Below are positions 19,309-60,463 of a stretch of 64,000 nucleotides of DNA, piece by piece (within the stretch, counting starts at the first letter, position 1; the number at the start of each line of letters is the position of its first letter). Below the pieces are notes generated by a model. That model did not search any database. It saw nothing but the letters and a program-made list of their open reading frames with translations, and had not been told where the DNA came from. The translations under genes and the position numbers were made by a program. This stretch comes from Thioalkalivibrio sulfidiphilus (GTDB lineage Bacteria > Pseudomonadota > Gammaproteobacteria > Ectothiorhodospirales > Ectothiorhodospiraceae). The stretch is taken from contig NZ_KB898921.1 of assembly GCF_000377945.1 (NCBI RefSeq), positions 1-64,000 on the forward strand, written 5' to 3'.

Positions 19309-19382
19309 AATTCAAGATTCAAAGTTCAAGATTCAAAGGGCAGATGCCTATCCCTTTGAATTTTGAATCTTGAATTTTGAAT
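19309..19382. repeat. Inverted repeat of ATTCAAG/ATTCAAA heptamers
   Basis: The left arm (19309-19340) is four tandem 7-nt units of the form RTTCAAR. The right arm (19352-19382) is the inverted series of TTTGAAT/CTTGAAT units. It sits between two convergent genes. A very similar element is at 53542-53610. Confidence 0.85.
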
Positions 19383-19399: not shown

Positions 19400-21382
19400 T
19401 CACCGCGCTCTTTTGAGTTCCCTGACCCGGTCCCGCGCCGGATGCAGGGCCTCCACCAGGTCACGGGGCAGGGGCAGGGGATCGCCATGCATCAGCGAGG
19501 CCAGCAGTTCGGCGCTCAGGGGGGCGGTGGTCAGGCCCCGCGAGCCATGGGCCAGGCTGGTGTAGACGCCGGGCAGCAGGGGCGCCCCGGGATAACTGTC
19601 GGGGCGACGGCCGTGATGCAGTTCCCCGTAGCAGCGTTCGAAGGCCACCATGCCCGGCAGCGGCCCCGCAAGCGGCAGGCGGCCCGGGGCGTTGAAGCGC
19701 AGCGCCGCCCGTCCGGCCATGGGCGGGTCCAACTCCCCCAGTGCGTCCGGCCAGACCCGGCGCAGACCCGCCAGGTTGCTGGCATGTTCTTCGGGTCGCA
19801 GCCGGGTATCCCGGTCACCACGCACGAAGCTCGCGCCGCAGACATGGCCGCTTCGGGTTGCGGGTGTCAGGTAGCCCTCGTAACACAGCACCCTTTTCAA
19901 CCCCCGCGTGATGCGGCTTGCTTCAATCACGCTCAGCTGGCCGCGCAGGGGCCTGGGTTCGATGCCCGGATGCAGCCCTGGCATGCCCGCGCCGTTGGCC
20001 AGCACCACCCGGGGTGCGCGTGTGATCGCCACGCCATGCTCATCTTCCAGCAGCCAGTCTTGTCCGTCACGGGTGAGGCGTGACACCGGTCGTCCCAGGC
20101 GCAGTTCCACGCCCGCCTTCGCCATCTGGGCTCGGCACAGGGCCGCCGGGTCCACCCAGCCTGCCCGGGGCAGGAACAGGCACGGAAGCTCAAGCGGCAC
20201 GCCGGCCAGTTCGCTGGCCTCGGCGGCATCAACCGCCCGCATCAGTTCCGGGGGCAGGGGCAGGCGTTCACGGATGCGTTCCAGGCGCTGCGCCAGGCGC
20301 TTGCCGTCGGCCAGCCACAGCGCGCCGCACCAGTCCCGCGGCAGGTCCTCGACCGTCAGGCCTAGGGATTCGATCCAGTCGCGTGAAAACTCCGAAGCCA
20401 TCAGCGTGAAGCGGCTCACCACCCCGTGATCGGCGCTCAGGTGCGGCATGAGGATGCCGGCCGGGTTACCGGAGGCACCGGCGGCGACCTGATCCGCGCC
20501 ATCCACCACCGTGACCTGCCAGCCCCGGCGCGCCAGCGCCAAGGCCACGGCGCTGCCGGCAAGGCCTGCGCCGAGTACCGCCGCCTCGCGTTCGGCGGGT
20601 GCGGCGGGGGGCGGGTTCGAGAACCAGGGCGGGGTGGGGTCGGGGGTCGCTGCCTGTGCGTTTCTCAGGCCGCGGATGCGCTCCCGCTTGTGGCCAAAGC
20701 CCGGCAGGCGCTGGATGTCAAAGCCCGCGTTCTCCAGGCCGCGACGCACATGGCCGGCGGCGGTGAAACTGGCGAGTGACCCGCCCGCCGGTGTGAGTCG
20801 TGCCAGCTGCGCGTACAGCGCCTCCTGCCACAGGGCTTGGTTGCGCGCCGGGGCAAAGCCGTCCAGGTACCAGGCATCCACCTGCGCCTGGCACTGGCGC
20901 AGGCAGTCCACGGCATCGCCGAACATCAGGGTGAGGCTCAGACGTTCCCCGGGGAACACCAGCCGGTGAAAGCCGGGCACCGGCGCCGGGTACTGGGCCA
21001 ACAGCGACTCTCCCAGATGACGCAATGCCTGCGGCAGCGCAGAGATCAGACGGGCCAGGTCCTCGCGGGTGAAGGGATGCAGTTCCACGCTCAGGTAGTG
21101 CAGCCAGCCGGCTCCCGGCCGGCTGCGCCACAGGTCCCAGGTCAGCAGGAAGTTGAGCCCGGTGCCAAAGCCGGTCTCGGCGATGGTGAACACATCGCGG
21201 TCGAGCCAGCGCTCGGGCAGGCCGTTGGCGTCAAGGAACACGGTGCGGGATTCCTCGGCGCCATGGCCGTGGCTGAAGTACACGTCACCGTAGCGGGACG
21301 ACCAGGGCGTGCCGTCGCGAAATTCCAGCGCCGCCGGCTCCAGGGGCTGGAATCCGGCGCCTGTGTCAGTTGCGGATGCCAT
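19400..21382 (-). CDS. mnmC: Bifunctional tRNA wobble-uridine modification enzyme MnmC
   Basis: The 660-residue protein has an N-terminal SAM methyltransferase domain (about 1-240; ETGFGTGLNFLLTWDLW, WYLDGFAPARN) and a C-terminal FAD-dependent oxidoreductase (about 265-650; VLGAGLAGSAVALALARRG, SGNPAGILMPHLS). It converts cmnm5(s2)U34 to nm5 and then mnm5(s2)U34 in tRNAs. The gene overlaps the ABC permease upstream by 17 bp, an unusual coupling partner. MnmA, which supplies the 2-thio group of the same nucleotide, is at 38.3 kb. Confidence 0.94.
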   Translation of the reverse strand: MASATDTGAGFQPLEPAALEFRDGTPWSSRYGDVYFSHGHGAEESRTVFLDANGLPERWLDRDVFTIAETGFGTGLNFLLTWDLWRSRPGAGWLHYLSVELHPFTREDLARLISALPQALRHLGESLLAQYPAPVPGFHRLVFPGERLSLTLMFGDAVDCLRQCQAQVDAWYLDGFAPARNQALWQEALYAQLARLTPAGGSLASFTAAGHVRRGLENAGFDIQRLPGFGHKRERIRGLRNAQAATPDPTPPWFSNPPPAAPAEREAAVLGAGLAGSAVALALARRGWQVTVVDGADQVAAGASGNPAGILMPHLSADHGVVSRFTLMASEFSRDWIESLGLTVEDLPRDWCGALWLADGKRLAQRLERIRERLPLPPELMRAVDAAEASELAGVPLELPCLFLPRAGWVDPAALCRAQMAKAGVELRLGRPVSRLTRDGQDWLLEDEHGVAITRAPRVVLANGAGMPGLHPGIEPRPLRGQLSVIEASRITRGLKRVLCYEGYLTPATRSGHVCGASFVRGDRDTRLRPEEHASNLAGLRRVWPDALGELDPPMAGRAALRFNAPGRLPLAGPLPGMVAFERCYGELHHGRRPDSYPGAPLLPGVYTSLAHGSRGLTTAPLSAELLASLMHGDPLPLPRDLVEALHPARDRVRELKRAR

Positions 21383-22139
21383 GCCCCTTGTTGAGCAGGT
21401 ACAGGCTGAAGGAGAACAGCGCGGCGATGAAACCCAGGATGATGGCGTAGGAGAGCCACAGGTTGATGTCGCTCACCCCCAGCAGCCCGTAGCGGAAGGC
21501 ATTGACCATGTACAGGATGGGATTGAGGTGTGAGACCCCCTGCCAGAACTCCGGCAGCATGGTGATGGAGTAGAACACGCCGCCCAGGTAGGTGAGCGGG
21601 GTGAGCACGAAGGTGGGGATGATGGAGATGTCGTCGAAGCTCTTGGCGTAGATGCCGTTGATCAGCCCCGCCAGGGAGAACAGCACGGAGGTGAGCAGCA
21701 CCACCGAGAGCGTCACGCCCAGGTTGTGCATGCTGAAGGGACTGAACAGCAGCGACACCAGGGTGACCGCCACGCCAACGGTGAGCCCCCGGCACACGCC
21801 GCCGGCCACGAAGCCCAGGATGATGAGCGCGTTGGGGATAGGCGCCACCAGCATCTCCTCGATGTGATGCTGGAACTTGGAGCCGTAGAAGGATGACACC
21901 ACGTTGGCGTAGGAGTTGGTGATGATGGTCATCATGATCAGGCCGGGGACGATGAAGTCCATGTAGCGCAGCCCGTCCATCTCGCCGATGCGCGAACCGA
22001 TCAGGCCGCCGAAGATGATGAAGTAGAGCGCCGTGGTGATGGCCGGCGGCAGCACGGTCTGCACCCAGATGCGCATGAAGCGCAGCACTTCCTTGATGAC
22101 GATGGTCTGGAAGGCGATCCAGTTGCGACGCAGGTTCAT
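21366..22139 (-). CDS. ABC-2 type transporter permease (YadH-like)
   Basis: The 257-residue protein has six predicted membrane helices and the ABC2_membrane signature (ILYMVNAFRYGLLG near the C-terminus; PLTYLGGVFYSITMLPEFW). It pairs with the ATPase upstream, overlapping its end by 4 bp. Such YadGH-type exporters move lipids, polysaccharides or drugs outward; the substrate cannot be read from the sequence. Confidence 0.9.
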   Translation of the reverse strand: MNLRRNWIAFQTIVIKEVLRFMRIWVQTVLPPAITTALYFIIFGGLIGSRIGEMDGLRYMDFIVPGLIMMTIITNSYANVVSSFYGSKFQHHIEEMLVAPIPNALIILGFVAGGVCRGLTVGVAVTLVSLLFSPFSMHNLGVTLSVVLLTSVLFSLAGLINGIYAKSFDDISIIPTFVLTPLTYLGGVFYSITMLPEFWQGVSHLNPILYMVNAFRYGLLGVSDINLWLSYAIILGFIAALFSFSLYLLNKGHGIRN

Positions 22140-53541: not shown

Positions 53542-53610
53542 AATTCAACGTTCAAAATTCAAGATTCAAAGTCGCTGCACCTTTGAATTTTGAACGTTGA
53601 ATGTTGAATT
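53542..53610. repeat. Inverted repeat of TTCAAAA/TTCAACG heptamers
   Basis: The arms 53542-53571 and 53581-53610 are inverted arrays of four 7-nt units. It resembles the element at 19309-19382. It lies between pilZ and tatD, both on the plus strand, and ends 8 bp before the tatD ATG. Confidence 0.85.
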
Positions 53611-54555: not shown

Positions 54556-55854
54556 TCAGCCTGCATCCAGCGGGCTGCGCACGGCCAGACCGCCGCGGTT
54601 CAGCACATGGGTGTAGATCTGAGTCGTGGACACGTCCGCGTGTCCCAGCAGTTCCTGCACCGTGCGGATGTCGTAGCCGCTCTCCAGCAGATGGGTGGCG
54701 AAGCTATGGCGCAGCGTGTGGCAACTGGCCCGCTTCGCGATACCCGCCCGCCGGGCCGCCGAAACGACAGCCTTCTGCACCGCCGTCTCGTGCAGATGAT
54801 GTCGTCGCGTCGCATCACTGCGCGGATCCCTGGACAGCCGGCCACTGGGAAACACGAACTGCCAGCGCCACTCCCGGGGCGCGCTGGGATACTTGCGTGC
54901 CAGGGCATCCGGCAGCATGGCCTCGCCGTAGCCCGCGTCCAGGTCCCGCTGATGCAGCGCCCGCACCTCTCTCAAGTGACGGGCAAGCGGGCCGGCCAGG
55001 GATTCAGGCAGTGGCACGATGCGATCCTTGTCCCCCTTGCCGCGCCGCACCACGATCAAGCCCCGGTCGAACTCCAGATCCTGCACCCTCAGACGCAGTG
55101 CCTCCATGAGCCGCATGCCCGTGCCGTAGAGCAGGGAAGCGATCAGCCACTGCATGCCATCCAGTTCCGAAAGCAGTCGATTCACCTCATTGCGGGACAG
55201 CACCACCGGCAGGCGCCTCGGGCGCCGGGATCGTCTGAATGCCCCCAGATCACCCAGAGGTTGTTCGAGCACCTTGTCATAGAGGAACACCAGCTCATCC
55301 GGTGCCCGGGCGTCGAAGTGCAGGAGAAATCGGCAGACCCAGCCGAGATAAGTCTTTTCCGTGCGGATCGACATGCCCCGGGTGCGTATGCCCGAGGCCA
55401 GGCGCACGAAGGCGTCCAGGTGCTTGTGTATGAGTGGGGCAAAGCGAGTATCGCCGATACGGCCCGCATAATCCTCGGGCGTCACCGGGGCGAATTCACG
55501 TGCAGTGGTGGCGTGTTGCGCTTCGAGGGTGCGGGCCGAATCCCGCCAGAAATCCCAATCCGGCGGCACGGGCCATTCTGTGCGCACGATGCTATACAGA
55601 GTCTGTATAGCATCGACCGACTGGCGGAACTGCCAGGCCTGCAAATTGGGTTTTTGCCCCAGCCGGGCCAGGTAGTCGGAGACGTCGTTCGCCTCCAGTT
55701 CCGCCAGACGCCGGCCCGGAAAGGCACGGATTAACTGCTCCGCCCGCATCACATACCAGCGTACCGATGCGGGCTTAACGCCCTGAGAGATCAGAATATT
55801 CCGGTAAAGATCCCAAAACCGGCGTTCCTGCTCGGCGCGACTCCCTGTCGCCAT
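54556..55854 (-). CDS. intI: Integron integrase (long IntI) with apparent 30-residue internal deletion
   Basis: The 432-residue tyrosine recombinase has the catalytic residues R248 ([12 protein letters not shown]), H379 and R382 (CHTLRHSF), H405 ([10 protein letters not shown]) and Y414 (IYTHVL). The IntI-specific patch [20 protein letters not shown] is present. An extra N-terminal core-binding-like domain (about 1-150) precedes the canonical one. From [10 protein letters not shown] to RRLPVVL it is 30 residues shorter than IntI1; helices after APDE are missing and the chain resumes at [10 protein letters not shown]. It may thus be impaired. GGGAGGT precedes the ATG. It faces away from the cassettes, as in true integrons. 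Confidence 0.93.
55587..55615. repeat. 29-bp perfect palindrome inside intI
   Basis: The arms 55587-55600 (CGATGCTATACAGA) and 55602-55615 pair perfectly around a single base. It lies in the extra N-terminal domain of the integrase. It does not match the LexA spacing. Confidence 0.8.
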
Positions 55855-55924
55855 AAGGCACCTCCCTGTGTGCACGAAGCTCCTGAACAGGATTCATGCT
55901 GCCGCAACGCACACCGGAGAGGCA

Positions 55925-55994
55925 AGAGTTCCGCGTACTATACGGAATCCGCATATCATCGATATGGCAGAATCCGTCTAATCAACTGTTAGCA
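55925..55994 (+). other. Putative attI recombination site
   Basis: The site lies between intI and the first cassette. The crossover core is GTTAGCA (55988-55994), which matches in inverted form the TGCTAAC that begins attC1, as expected if cassette 1 inserted here. Upstream, TTCCG/CGGAA (55929-55947) and ATATCATCGATAT are candidate integrase-binding motifs. No confident Pc promoter was found. Confidence 0.65.
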
Positions 55995-56010
55995 CTGGAA
56001 GAAATTAGGT

Positions 56011-56490
56011 ATGAAGCTATTTTGCTTTGCATCAAAGAACGTCGAGAACATCCAAATTGGCATTGACCGTCAGTTGTGGGCAGTGGGCACGCTTCTGAAT
56101 CAACAGTCGATGGCCGGGCGTATCACAAAGGCAGAAAAATACCTTCGCCCTGGTGATCTCGGGGTTCTTTACTGCAATCCCACGCATTCATTTACCACCC
56201 CATTCATTGTCCGTTCACACGCAGATCCCAATGAGGTAGTTCTGGATGTTTGGCCTGAACCATGGTGTTTGCCTTTCAAGATCGAAACCCTCGGCGATTT
56301 GTCGAGGCAAATATCGGGAGATCTCGCTGCCAAGCATTGGCCAGTTTTGAAACGAAGGCTTGAGGCGAATCACGGGCGCGGTGGAGTAAGCGCAGCCATG
56401 AACATTACCGGTACAACCGTTTTCGTTCCTGTGGAAATTACTGGCGAAGACTGGGAGGCCATCCTTGAAGATTTGGCAAAACCAAAATAG
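56011..56490 (+). CDS. Cassette 1: EVE/PUA-like protein
   Basis: The 159-residue soluble protein has KAEKYLRPGDLGVLYCNPTH followed by a beta-rich segment and LDVWPEPWCLPFKI. This layout resembles EVE/YTH-like (PUA superfamily) domains, which recognise modified nucleotides. The match is by general pattern, not a decisive motif. Its AT content is higher than that of neighbouring core genes. It occupies a cassette running from 55989 to 56558, with the stop immediately before attC1. Confidence 0.6.
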   Translation: MKLFCFASKNVENIQIGIDRQLWAVGTLLNQQSMAGRITKAEKYLRPGDLGVLYCNPTHSFTTPFIVRSHADPNEVVLDVWPEPWCLPFKIETLGDLSRQISGDLAAKHWPVLKRRLEANHGRGGVSAAMNITGTTVFVPVEITGEDWEAILEDLAKPK

Positions 56491-56564
56491 TGCTAACAAG
56501 GGGCTCCAGGCGACCCCAAAAACGCTGGCGCGTTTTCGGGTCGCCTGAGCCCAATGCGTTGGGC
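56491..56564 (+). repeat. attC1 (74 bp)
   Basis: R'' TGCTAAC (56491-56497) and R' GTTGGGC (56558-56564) flank a long imperfect stem: GGGCTC/GAGCCC then AGGCGACCC/GGGTCGCCT, with an AAAACGC/GCGTTTT apex. Crossover is between G56558 and T56559. Confidence 0.9.
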
Positions 56565-56579
56565 AACCAAGGAGAAGCA

Positions 56580-56906
56580 ATGACGTCTGCTGAAAATGAA
56601 AAAAGGAAGACTTTGGCATTAACTGCCATCAAAAACGCCTTCGGAACCGAGGAAGGTGAAGGCAACGTTAATTTGTTTGTTGAGCATCATCTTGGGGAGT
56701 TGCCACAAAGTTATTGGCAGCAGCATCTTGGTGCTAGCTCGCCAGAACCGAAGTCTGTAGTGGGGCTTCTCCAACTTCGTTCATCCTGGGGAGACAAAGG
56801 CATTGAATATTTTGACTTCAAGCTTCCTGGCGAGGTAACGGACTACGTTGTTTCGGTGCGTTTTGATGATTCAGGTAATATCGATGGCATCTCAATGGAA
56901 AGTTGA
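56580..56906 (+). CDS. Cassette 2: DUF2004-like protein
   Basis: The 108-residue soluble protein ends YFDFKLPGEVTDYVVSVRFD followed by DDSGNIDGISMES-like residues, resembling DUF2004 members. Function is unknown. AGGAG lies 7 nt before the ATG. The coding sequence is less GC-rich than core genes. The cassette spans 56559-56978. Confidence 0.65.
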   Translation: MTSAENEKRKTLALTAIKNAFGTEEGEGNVNLFVEHHLGELPQSYWQQHLGASSPEPKSVVGLLQLRSSWGDKGIEYFDFKLPGEVTDYVVSVRFDDSGNIDGISMES

Positions 56907-56915
56907 ACCGGGCAT

Positions 56916-56984
56916 GCCCAACAAGGCGCTTGTGTGGGACGCTGCACTGCGTTGCGGCTTGCGCCCCACAGCTTGTCGTTAGCC
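56916..56984 (+). repeat. attC2 (69 bp)
   Basis: R'' GCCCAAC (56916-56922) is the complement of the GTTGGGC that starts cassette 2. R' is GTTAGCC (56978-56984). The stem includes TGTGGG/CCCACA. Confidence 0.88.
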
Positions 56985-57006
56985 ACTACACGAGGGAGGA
57001 TAGGAA

Positions 57007-58008
57007 TTGGCCGTCTGGATAGTCTCAGCAGGTTCGTCCGGGCGCGACTACGCCGACGCGTTCTACAAGTTCGGCATGGCGTTCGTGGGTGGGGGCAATC
57101 AGTGCTCTGCTATGGGCCGCGTGCAAGAGGGCGATATCATTCTATTGAAGCGCGGCGTCTCTGAGTTCTTGTCCGCGGGCATCGTCGTCAACCGGAACGG
57201 CGTCGTTTCTGGCAATGGAGATAAGGACTGGCTCCGAGATTTCGATGGCTGGGACTTGCCAGCGTATTGCCACGTTGAATGGCATGTCTCGCCTCAGCCG
57301 GTACCAGCCCAAGGATTGCGGCAGGGAACTATCTACAAAAGTTCGCAACCGCAGCATCTGGCGGCGGCTCAGGCGCTGCTAGCCGGTCCCGCCGCGCCTC
57401 CTGCCTCAGAACCCGGGGCAACGGAAGCAATCGACGACGAGAAGCTCCTGTCGTACCTAATCCAAATTGGGCTTCCCGTTTCCAGCGCAGATGAGCTAAC
57501 TGAGGCGCTCCGACGCATCCGCTTGCTTGCTCACTACTACTACACCAACTGGGACTGGGCTGAGATTCGAGAGCACGAGACGCGGACTTTCCTAGTCACG
57601 CCACTGCTTCTTGCGCTGGGCTGGTCAGAACAACAGCTCAAGATCGAACTCCCCGCGCCCGGCGGCCGGGTAGACGTCGCTTGCTTTGCTGGTCCGTACT
57701 CCGGCAAGGCTGAGGACGTCGTCGCCCTGCTCGAGACCAAGGGGTTTTCGCAGGGCCTTTTCTACGCGGCCGATCAGGCGAGAGGGTACGCTACTCATTT
57801 CCCGCGATGTAAGGCGGTAATCATCACAAACGGATTCTGCTACAAGACGTTCGTCAGAGGAGACGACGGAGCCTTTCCCGCGTCACCCTCGGCGTACTTG
57901 AACTTGTTGAGACCTCGTAGCCGCTATCCATTGGATCCTGAACATGTCGGGGGAGCACTCGATGCGCTCGATTGCTTACTTCCTGCAAAGCTGTTGCGTG
58001 GTGGCTAA
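57007..58008 (+). CDS. Cassette 3: EVE-like sensor fused to PD-(D/E)XK nuclease
   Basis: The 333-residue protein has an N-terminal domain (1-115: VWIVSAGSSGRDYADAF, QEGDIILLKRG) resembling EVE-like readers of restriction enzymes, a linker and a C-terminal HsdR_N/RecB-like nuclease. Visible catalytic residues are E191, D223 (RVDVACF), E243-x-K245 (LLETKG) and the QxxxY motif Q257/Y261 (DQARGY). This suggests a modification-dependent nuclease for defence against foreign DNA. The start is TTG at 57007 with GAGGGAGGA upstream. The stop TAA lies inside attC3. It is larger than most cassette genes. Confidence 0.75.
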   Translation: MAVWIVSAGSSGRDYADAFYKFGMAFVGGGNQCSAMGRVQEGDIILLKRGVSEFLSAGIVVNRNGVVSGNGDKDWLRDFDGWDLPAYCHVEWHVSPQPVPAQGLRQGTIYKSSQPQHLAAAQALLAGPAAPPASEPGATEAIDDEKLLSYLIQIGLPVSSADELTEALRRIRLLAHYYYTNWDWAEIREHETRTFLVTPLLLALGWSEQQLKIELPAPGGRVDVACFAGPYSGKAEDVVALLETKGFSQGLFYAADQARGYATHFPRCKAVIITNGFCYKTFVRGDDGAFPASPSAYLNLLRPRSRYPLDPEHVGGALDALDCLLPAKLLRGG

Positions 58009-58062
58009 CAATGGCTTCCGGCGGACGGCGCTTCGCGCCGCCGCTGAAGCCGAGCGTTATAC
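58003..58062 (+). repeat. attC3 (60 bp)
   Basis: R'' GGCTAAC (58003-58009) is the complement of the GTTAGCC that starts cassette 3. R' is GTTATAC (58056-58062). The stem GGCTTC/GAAGCC and GGCGG/CCGCC closes around GGCGCTTCGCGCC. Confidence 0.9.
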
Positions 58063-58091
58063 GATCAAGGATGATGAGGTGACTACGTAAT

Positions 58092-58328
58092 ATGCCAACG
58101 ATGCTCAATATTGGGCCCTATCGGTTCTTTTTCTATAGTAATGAAAGAGGGGAACCGCCCCATATTCATGTGCAGAGAGAACGGTTTCTTGCTAAGTTTT
58201 GGTTAAGTCCTGTTGCGTTGGCTGGCTCGAAACGGTTTGCTTCGCACGAGCTGCGAGCAATATAGAAGCATGTTGATGAAAACAGGGAAATATTCCTGGA
58301 GGCGTGGAATGAGCACATTGGCAGTTGA
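58092..58328 (+). pseudogene. Cassette 4a: DUF4160 gene interrupted by an amber codon
   Basis: Translation gives MPTMLNIGPYRFFFYSNERG, then EPPHIHVQ, AKFWLSPV and SHELRAI, a clear DUF4160 protein. Codon 58 is TAG (58263-58265). The frame then continues KHVDENREIFLEAWNEHIGS to TGA at 58326, the expected DUF4160 C-terminus. So a single base change removed the last 20 residues. A 57-residue truncated product is possible. Confidence 0.85.
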
Positions 58329-58554
58329 AACACATCCCCTGGCTCAGAATGTCGAGTTTACAGATGATGATCTAGTTGTGTCATTGGTGGATGGGCGAAA
58401 GGTTACAGTCCCATTGGTTTGGTTTCCGCGTTTGGCTGGAGCCAAGAAAGCGCAATTAGAGAACTACGAGCTTCTGGGTGATGGCGAAGGTATCCATTGG
58501 CCGGAAATGGATGAAGATCTGAGCGTAGCCGGATTGCTACGCGGAGATCATTAG
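58309..58554 (+). CDS. Cassette 4b: DUF2442 protein
   Basis: The 81-residue protein has VEFTDDDLVVSLVDGRKVTV and VPLVWFPRL followed by IHWPEMDEDLSVAGLL, the DUF2442 pattern. It overlaps the DUF4160 frame by 20 bp, the usual arrangement of this pair. Such pairs are often suspected to be toxin-antitoxin-like, which is unproven. GGAGG is 7 nt upstream. Confidence 0.85.
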   Translation: MSTLAVETHPLAQNVEFTDDDLVVSLVDGRKVTVPLVWFPRLAGAKKAQLENYELLGDGEGIHWPEMDEDLSVAGLLRGDH

Positions 58555-58562
58555 TATTCATC

Positions 58563-58621
58563 GCATAACAAACCCATCGAGCCGACGCTAAAAATCAGCG
58601 CGGCTCATGGTGCCGTCCGGC
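58563..58621 (+). repeat. attC4 with degenerate R' core
   Basis: R'' is GCATAAC (58563-58569), one base from the complement of GTTATAC. The stem GAGCC/GGCTC is clear. The expected R' is GTCCGGC (58615-58621), one base from the GTTCGGC predicted by the R'' of attC5. Confidence 0.7.
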
Positions 58622-58665
58622 GAGAACCATTGCGGGGAATATTCGCATGAAGGAGGACAATAAAG

Positions 58666-58854
58666 ATGTCCACAAAGATCAGTAAAGACGAAGCCCACAG
58701 GCTGGTGGATCAATTGCCTGCCGATGCGACGTGGGATGACCTGATGCGTGAAATATACGTACGCGAGGCAATTGAAAAGGGGCTAAGCGACAGTATTGCA
58801 GGAAGAACAAAGGCTGTAGAAGAGGTCAGGAAAAAGTACGGATTACCTGAATGA
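58666..58854 (+). CDS. Cassette 5a: antitoxin
   Basis: The 62-residue protein (KISKDEAHRLVDQLPADATW, then DDLMREIYVREAIEKGLSDS) is the type commonly encoded just upstream of ParE-family toxins. AAGGAGG precedes the ATG. It overlaps the toxin by ATGA. It should neutralise the toxin and bind its own promoter. Confidence 0.82.
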   Translation: MSTKISKDEAHRLVDQLPADATWDDLMREIYVREAIEKGLSDSIAGRTKAVEEVRKKYGLPE

Positions 58855-59144
58855 GAGTGCATTGGACCGAAACGGCCGAGGCCCATTTGGACGCGATATA
58901 TGGGTATATTGCACAGGATTCGGAAACCTATGCTCTTCGGACGGTTGATCAGATCACAAGAAAATCCCAGCAGATCGGCGCGTTCCCCTTGTCGGGGCGT
59001 CGGGTATCAGAATACGGCATGGATCAGATAAGGGAAGTGTTCTCAGGTCCATTCAGGATTATCTACTACATTAAGGCTGATCAGATCGACGTTCTTGCTG
59101 TAATTCACGGTGCGATGAATGTATTGCGGGATGAGCAAGAATAG
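58851..59144 (+). CDS. Cassette 5b: ParE/RelE superfamily toxin
   Basis: The 97-residue protein has VHWTETAEAHLDAIYGYIAQ, PLSGRRVSEYG and RIIYYIKADQIDVLAVIHGA, characteristic of ParE-type toxins. ParE toxins inhibit gyrase; RelE toxins cut mRNA. The ParE form is likelier from the sequence. It would stabilise the cassette array against loss. Confidence 0.88.
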   Translation: MRVHWTETAEAHLDAIYGYIAQDSETYALRTVDQITRKSQQIGAFPLSGRRVSEYGMDQIREVFSGPFRIIYYIKADQIDVLAVIHGAMNVLRDEQE

Positions 59145-59149
59145 GGAAG

Positions 59150-59246
59150 GCCGAACAATCTGCTCCAGACGTCGCTTGACAGCTTTCTCCATTCGCTATC
59201 GCTCCGGTCGGTCGCCGTCATGCGCGTCTGAGCACAAGCGTTAGGC
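59150..59246 (+). repeat. attC5 (97 bp), distal end of the array
   Basis: R'' GCCGAAC (59150-59156) and R' GTTAGGC (59240-59246) flank stem GCTCCAGACG/CGTCTGAGC with an extra C in the left strand. No further R'' core (GCCTAAC) follows, so the array ends here. Confidence 0.88.
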
Positions 59247-59341: not shown

Positions 59342-60088
59342 TCACGCCGCTGGCATCGGCAAGACCCCCTCCACCAGAAACCTTTCCACCGGCAGCACGT
59401 GCACCTGGGTCTCCGTCTCACCCAGGAAGCGCACGTGCGCGCCGTCCGTTTCGCACAGCCAGTGTTCCTGTGACCTGGGCCGGGCATCGGCCAGGGCCCT
59501 GGGGGTGAACAGGGCGACATTGATGCCCTCATCCCGCGCCGAGCGGTACTCGAAGGCCTGCACCCCCGCCTCGCGCAGGGCCGTGCCCAGTTGCTGGGTG
59601 GCGCGGTAGTCGGCGGGGTGGGTGAGTGCCACCCGGAAGGCGTCGAAGGGCGGGTCCTGGAGTCTCAGTCCCCGGCGGCTGCGGTAGGCGGCCTCGAACA
59701 CCGTGTGCCGGGTCACCAGGGCGCTGGCGGGCGGGATTGTCATGCCGTACCAGAAATAGAAGCGGTAGAAGGCGGCTTCCGCGAGCAGGGTGGGCAGGCT
59801 CAGCGAGCCGTAGAACAGGCTCGGCTCGAAGCGGCGGCCGAACCGGGAGCCGTGGCGCAGGGGCGGGTAGCGGAACGGGGTGACGAGCAGGTAGTGGCGC
59901 GGCCCTTCGGCGGGCAGGGGCGGCTTGGTGGCCTCCAGCAGGGCCTCGAGAGTGGCCTGCTCCTCCAGGGAGTCCACCAGCCGGTTGGTGGCCACCTGTT
60001 CCTGGCTTTCCACCAGGCGCAGCAGGGTGCCCTTGAGCGGGCCCGGCGCGGCGGTCTCCCGACAGGCGGACCAGATATCAGGATACAC
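59342..60088 (-). CDS. RES-domain toxin
   Basis: The 248-residue protein has a RES domain (about 70-225) with FRYPPLRHGSRFG, a conserved Glu in TLLAEAAFYRF and the RSARDEGINVALF motif carrying the conserved Ser. RES toxins degrade NAD+. The GTG start follows directly on the antitoxin stop (no gap). It is convergent with the integron array. Confidence 0.88.
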   Translation of the reverse strand: MYPDIWSACRETAAPGPLKGTLLRLVESQEQVATNRLVDSLEEQATLEALLEATKPPLPAEGPRHYLLVTPFRYPPLRHGSRFGRRFEPSLFYGSLSLPTLLAEAAFYRFYFWYGMTIPPASALVTRHTVFEAAYRSRRGLRLQDPPFDAFRVALTHPADYRATQQLGTALREAGVQAFEYRSARDEGINVALFTPRALADARPRSQEHWLCETDGAHVRFLGETETQVHVLPVERFLVEGVLPMPAA

Positions 60089-60463
60089 TCAGACTTTGCC
60101 TCGCATGGCGTCGAGGTATTCTGTCACTCTGACCAGACCCTGGGCCGTGAGCACCTGCTCGGCCGGGACGCCGCCGGTGTGGTGGTTGGCCGTGTGCATC
60201 CAGTGGCGCAGCTGTTCGGGGTCGCCGCCCACCAGCACGAACAGGGCCCGGTAGCAGCGCACCAGCAGCAGCGCCAGTTCCCCGGCCTTGCTGTCGGGAT
60301 CGATCTGGCCCCGGGTGAGGGTGCTGCGGTCCTTCCCGATCACCTGGCCCAGGGCGGCGCGGTTGAGTCCCAGTTCCTTGCCGGCATTGAGAAACGCCTT
60401 GGTGAGCACTTGGGCGGGATCTGTGCGGGTCGCGGTGGCAAGCTGGCTCATGGCAGCCTCCAA
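60089..60463 (-). CDS. Xre/MbcA/ParS-type antitoxin of the RES toxin
   Basis: The 124-residue protein has an N-terminal helix-turn-helix (about 20-60: AFLNAGKELGLNRAALGQVI) and a C-terminal MbcA/ParS toxin-binding domain (HWMHTANHHTGGVPAEQVLT). Antitoxin-first order with zero spacing is typical. A second Met four codons in is an alternative start. It is divergent from the phosphoesterase with a 34-bp gap where the operator should lie. Confidence 0.88.
   Translation of the reverse strand: MEAAMSQLATATRTDPAQVLTKAFLNAGKELGLNRAALGQVIGKDRSTLTRGQIDPDSKAGELALLLVRCYRALFVLVGGDPEQLRHWMHTANHHTGGVPAEQVLTAQGLVRVTEYLDAMRGKV

Follow-up and report, generated by a model that had tools for sequence, protein, structure and literature searches.

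The window, a stretch of 64 kb, belongs to a draft genome of 69 contigs and 3.05 Mb, in a family that includes Ectothiorhodospira marina. At positions 54556-59246 it carries an integron constituted of an integrase gene (intI, minus strand), a recombination site (attI) and five gene cassettes (plus strand). Its components are as follows, the cassette bounds being drawn with the crossover between G and TT.

54556-55875, minus strand: intI, long-form integron integrase, 439 aa from GTG (TIGR02249, PF00589)
55291/55292, minus strand: junction of a 90-bp in-frame deletion (30 aa) in the second core-binding domain of IntI, from alignments and models
55587-55615, no strand: perfect 29-bp palindrome CGATGCTATACAGA-N-TCTGTATAGCATCG inside intI, a motif shared with attI
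55926-55994, plus strand: attI, with a copy of the motif CTATACGGAATCCGCATA (55938-55955), a second partial copy GGCAGAATCCGTCTAATC and the core GTTAGCA (55988-55994)
55989-56558, plus strand: cassette 1; ORF 56011-56490, 159 aa, no family
56491-56564, plus strand: attC1 (26.0 bits, E 0.001 over the window)
56559-56978, plus strand: cassette 2; ORF 56580-56906, 108 aa, no family
56916-56984, plus strand: attC2 (22.4 bits, E 0.0071)
56979-58056, plus strand: cassette 3; ORF 57007-58008, 333 aa, TTG start
58003-58062, plus strand: attC3 (34.6 bits, E 1.1e-5)
58057-58615, plus strand: cassette 4; DUF4160 gene (58092-58265) broken by TAG, then DUF2442 gene (ORF 58213-58554)
58563-58621, plus strand: attC4, decayed, R' GTCCGGC and not GTTRRRY (11.8 bits, filters off)
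58616-59240, plus strand: cassette 5; RelB-like antitoxin (58666-58854) and ParE-family toxin (58851-59144)
59150-59246, plus strand: attC5, last site of the array (31.8 bits, E 4.9e-5)

A RES/Xre toxin-antitoxin pair (59342-60463) forms the right flank of the array and is part of the chromosomal background, not a cassette.

A preliminary description of the locus had proposed a divergent IntI-type integrase, an attI core and five cassettes. All three are recovered: intI lies on the minus strand and the cassettes are read the opposite way, away from it, the core GTTAGCA is present at 55988, and every listed cassette core is found in place. In a profile search, IntI matches TIGR02249 with 402 bits (cut-off 265, E 1.7e-120); PF00589 is matched as well. 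By comparison with E. marina, the ATG at 55854 is a likelier start than the GTG. The catalytic residues R255, K280, H386, R389, H412 and Y421 are kept in invariant alignment columns, and the extra patch specific to integron integrases is present as a region aligned with IntI1. About 110-130 extra N-terminal residues characterize this long form, which occurs in 23 of 25 aligned relatives and is seen in relatives from Ectothiorhodospira, Chromatiaceae and 'Desulfo-' organisms. A group of integrases made ∼120 residues longer by gene fusion, named 'clade 15', was reported by Nemergut et al. (2008, PMC2426708). The long form has thus apparently been described already, and by the length criterion of that study the window IntI fits this group (a ∼120-aa N-terminal fusion). 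In an AlphaFold model of the E. marina protein, the N-terminal extension and the usual core-binding domain have four helices each; on account of this likeness, the extension looks like a core-binding domain in its own right, which would give the long form two.

The attC sites were searched with a covariance model made from 36 sites of other genomes, trimmed to their arms and aligned, none of them from the window. Candidates collected upstream of intI in these genomes lie predominantly on the expected strand (34 versus 4 on the other). The default search, used here, returns exactly four matches in the 64 kb, all within the array and all on the plus strand (attC3, attC5, attC1 and attC2); a run with the filters off missed or truncated longer sites. 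The fifth site, attC4, is seen only in that filters-off run (11.8 bits, E 1.8). Its weak score is due to an R' core with GTC at 58615-58617 and not GTT, which is also the mismatch in the core of cassette 5; as this mismatch falls in the near-invariant GTT, the site is considered decayed. An Rfam search gives no attC match. In circular form, the bottom strand of all five sites folds into one long hairpin.

Core complementarity supports the same reading. With each cassette taken as a circle, the preliminary description had paired its R'' core with the R' core at its own left end and considered the agreement very unlikely by chance. The pairing was counted correctly: circles give 7, 7, 7, 6 and 6 matches out of 7, versus 4, 5, 5, 4 and 6 for linear neighbours. 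When only the four variable positions of each core are considered (20 in total), 19 are complementary in the circle and 10 in the line, and the observed assignment is the only one of 120 to reach 19, the remaining 119 all staying below. Arrays from two related genomes follow the circle rule too (26/32 versus 11/32 for the linear reading, and 16/16 versus 4/16). Cores of only seven bases can match fortuitously, and an ordinary operon or genomic island with such matches might be envisaged. Its probability is negligible, given the single assignment in 120; the independent covariance matches and a sister strain in which the same attI is followed by another first cassette refute it. The attC sites are 48-61% alike, which supports the separate acquisition of the five cassettes, as had been suggested. 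Superintegrons hold tens of cassettes with near-identical attC sites; with five cassettes and dissimilar sites, the array is not one of them, again in line with the preliminary description.

Among 46 other genomes from the order, none encodes a relative of the proteins of cassettes 1-3; a search of 369 genomes from the class gives two weak relatives for cassette 3 and none for cassette 2. The cassette 3 protein is 53% identical, over 86%, to a protein of Photobacterium toruni whose annotation lists an HsdR N-terminal domain, and is perhaps a restriction-type nuclease. Plasmid searches with cassettes 1, 2 and 5 found nothing, and the relative of cassette 3 on a Photobacterium plasmid has no attC match nearby. 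Cassette 4 contains the domains PF13711 and PF10387; the DUF2442 domain begins at residue 45 of its ORF, the real start of which is probably internal. In cassette 5, the toxin matches PF05016 (E 2.4e-16) and the antitoxin has weak matches to RelB and ParD.

Related genomes indicate how the locus has changed. In G044, the closest genome compared, the tatD region is 96% identical to the window, and the nearly identical attI runs up to CTGTTA, after which comes a GNAT acetyltransferase cassette with its own cores in agreement (7/7). The break of the G044 attI at the crossover point, leading into another cassette, indicates cassette exchange at attI. G045 has no integron at this place: only about 160 bp separate its tatD and RES genes, and this empty site implies that the 5 kb of the window are an insertion relative to G045. 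The same genes in a fixed order without attC, which would suit a fixed operon, were also searched for in relatives; the proteins of cassettes 1-3 having none in the 46 genomes, no fixed gene order is found there. Site-specific cassette turnover would predict both the differences of G044 and G045 and the lack of relatives for cassettes 1-3, and these observations argue against a fixed operon. In a further genome, G042 (L125 3033-9515), about 6.5 kb of other DNA without attC matches separates tatD from the RES gene. Left of the integron, a 60-bp inverted repeat lies between two genes (53543-53602); it is present in G044 as well, resembles a stretch near 19309-19382 and has the appearance of a dispersed repeat.

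Collectively, the IntI family match, the independent attC model, the core complementarity, the dissimilar attC sites and the two related genomes form the basis for reading 54556-59246 as an integron. It is very probably a genuine small sedentary chromosomal integron of a known kind, with five cassettes, since a sister strain has the same attI with another cassette and a relative has the site empty. Mobile integrons (classes 1-5) are carried by a transposon or plasmid. That this genome has the same attI family twice, with a further occurrence at lipB in G045, could evoke such an element, but the flanking tatD and RES genes are adjacent at the empty site of G045 and the array contains no transposase or resistance gene, so that a mobile origin is highly improbable.

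The integrase itself appears damaged. The 90-bp deletion is shared by none of the 25 aligned relatives and is also absent from the intI of G045 (L127), which is 86% identical in DNA. In the model of the window IntI, the last two helices (3 and 4) of the second core-binding domain are missing, with pLDDT of 50-60 in this region, and their loss should remove or weaken DNA binding. Because the deletion removes two core-binding helices present in 25/25 relatives, IntI is probably inactive. In G044, the same intI is cut by a different deletion of about 1.1 kb, which leaves only its two ends (L123 8951-9340). Such decay is a common fate of intI, nearly one third of the genes in a genomic survey being pseudogenes (PMC2426708).

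An open reading frame, conserved catalytic residues and an intact first core-binding-like domain nevertheless leave room for activity. The shortened IntI would then work with its N-terminal domain replacing the damaged one, and in a Foldseek comparison with IntIA (2a3v) the shortened model spans 424 columns and a full-length relative 314, as though the first domain stood in for the second. This is unlikely in view of the conservation of the lost helices in every relative, the low model confidence in the affected region and the decay seen in an attC site and in a cassette gene. In a draft genome, the deletion could also be suspected to be an artefact of assembly or sequencing, leaving an ordinary and intact integron; it keeps the reading frame exactly and its flanks are clean, and we consider an error of this sort quite improbable. 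The reading retained is that of an integron platform that is probably a fossil or nearly so, and not an active device, because the IntI deletion is accompanied by the decayed attC4 core and the stop codon in cassette 4. The cassette array is probably frozen. The long-form IntI, its deletion, the attC4 decay, the cassette 4 stop and a second attI without intI are all absent from the preliminary description.

This second attI lies on contig C42 of the same genome (L142 5732-7979), where a copy of the attI region is followed by cassettes with attC sites at 20939-20997 (38.5 bits) and 21428-21499 (30.3 bits). At least two attC-bearing cassettes (a ClpP-like serine protease and a UPF0150-like gene) occur at this locus, together with an unbroken DUF4160/DUF2442 pair, and no intI is found there. 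Single attC-like sites occur away from any integrase on contigs C17 (L143 5806-5877, 25.1 bits) and C20 (L144 5187-5244, 20.1 bits); the former matches an attC of G044 with 89% identity over 65 bp.

The attI sequence is conserved in three other copies (G044, G045 and contig C42), which end at the GTT core. Its motif, CTATACNGANTCNGNATA, is found at three places in the 3.05-Mb genome, namely attI (55938-55955), the C42 attI (C42:19735-19752) and the palindrome inside intI (55587-55615); this pattern was defined once the attI and intI copies were known, and the independent result is thus its absence elsewhere only. The reversed control has no match in the genome. Both arms of the intI palindrome are unchanged in G045, and its third codon positions are more conserved than the rest of the gene, with 9/9 identical to G045 (0.68 elsewhere) and 5/7 identical to E. 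marina (0.47 elsewhere). Upstream of other long intI genes, related inverted repeats are in modest excess (17 versus a shuffled expectation of 10.7, two mismatches allowed). A LexA box before intI, for control by the SOS response, is common in integrons but not universal. At 55860-56010 there is no CTGT-N8-ACAG within 1 mismatch, which speaks against LexA control of intI; the palindrome is not itself a LexA box, and with only three genomic places, all in integron loci, it is not a general SOS box either. LexA boxes are known to be missing or poor in the company of broken integrases (PMC8946536).

As attI1 is known to have two additional direct repeats, which promote its recombination with attC (PMC8946536), the simplest guess is that the copies are accessory sites for IntI. 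It is tempting, if speculative, to propose that the palindrome CTATACNGA-N-TCNGNATA, present in both attI and intI, is a control or recombination element of this group's own, a LexA-independent autoregulatory or accessory site bound by IntI, perhaps through its extra N-terminal domain. Such a shared palindrome could be tested as an alternative to SOS control in long-form integrases and is the one unexplained lead in an otherwise ordinary integron.

The history of the locus can be proposed as follows. An integron inserted between tatD and the RES/Xre pair would formerly have captured circular cassettes through its long-form IntI, by recombination of the folded attC bottom strand with attI at the G/TT point, which would account for five cassettes all in one direction. 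With IntI now presumably inactive or greatly weakened, as its in-frame deletion suggests, the array would have become stable, and the further decay of the attC4 core and cassette 4 would fit; the ParE pair of cassette 5 may help to retain it. The case adds a well-bounded small chromosomal integron whose integrase seems switched off by an internal deletion. With two different intI deletions in sister strains, one genus shows integrase function lost repeatedly while the cassettes are retained.

The integron resembles the sedentary chromosomal integrons of Xanthomonas, Vibrio and Ectothiorhodospira in its divergent IntI, its attI and attC sites, its single reading direction and its content of mostly unknown genes with a toxin-antitoxin cassette; it differs by having only five cassettes, dissimilar attC sites and an internally deleted integrase. 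Its IntI shares the extra N-terminal residues of the clade 15 integrases (PMC2426708), but its second core-binding domain is 30 aa shorter. Like the superintegron of Vibrio cholerae, it is chromosomal with attC-bounded cassettes, though that array has about 180 (PMC8946536), against five here with attC sites only 48-61% alike. The lipB-locus integron of G045 has a similar integrase gene (86% identical in DNA) and the same attI motif; it occupies another place in the chromosome and encodes an IntI free of the deletion.
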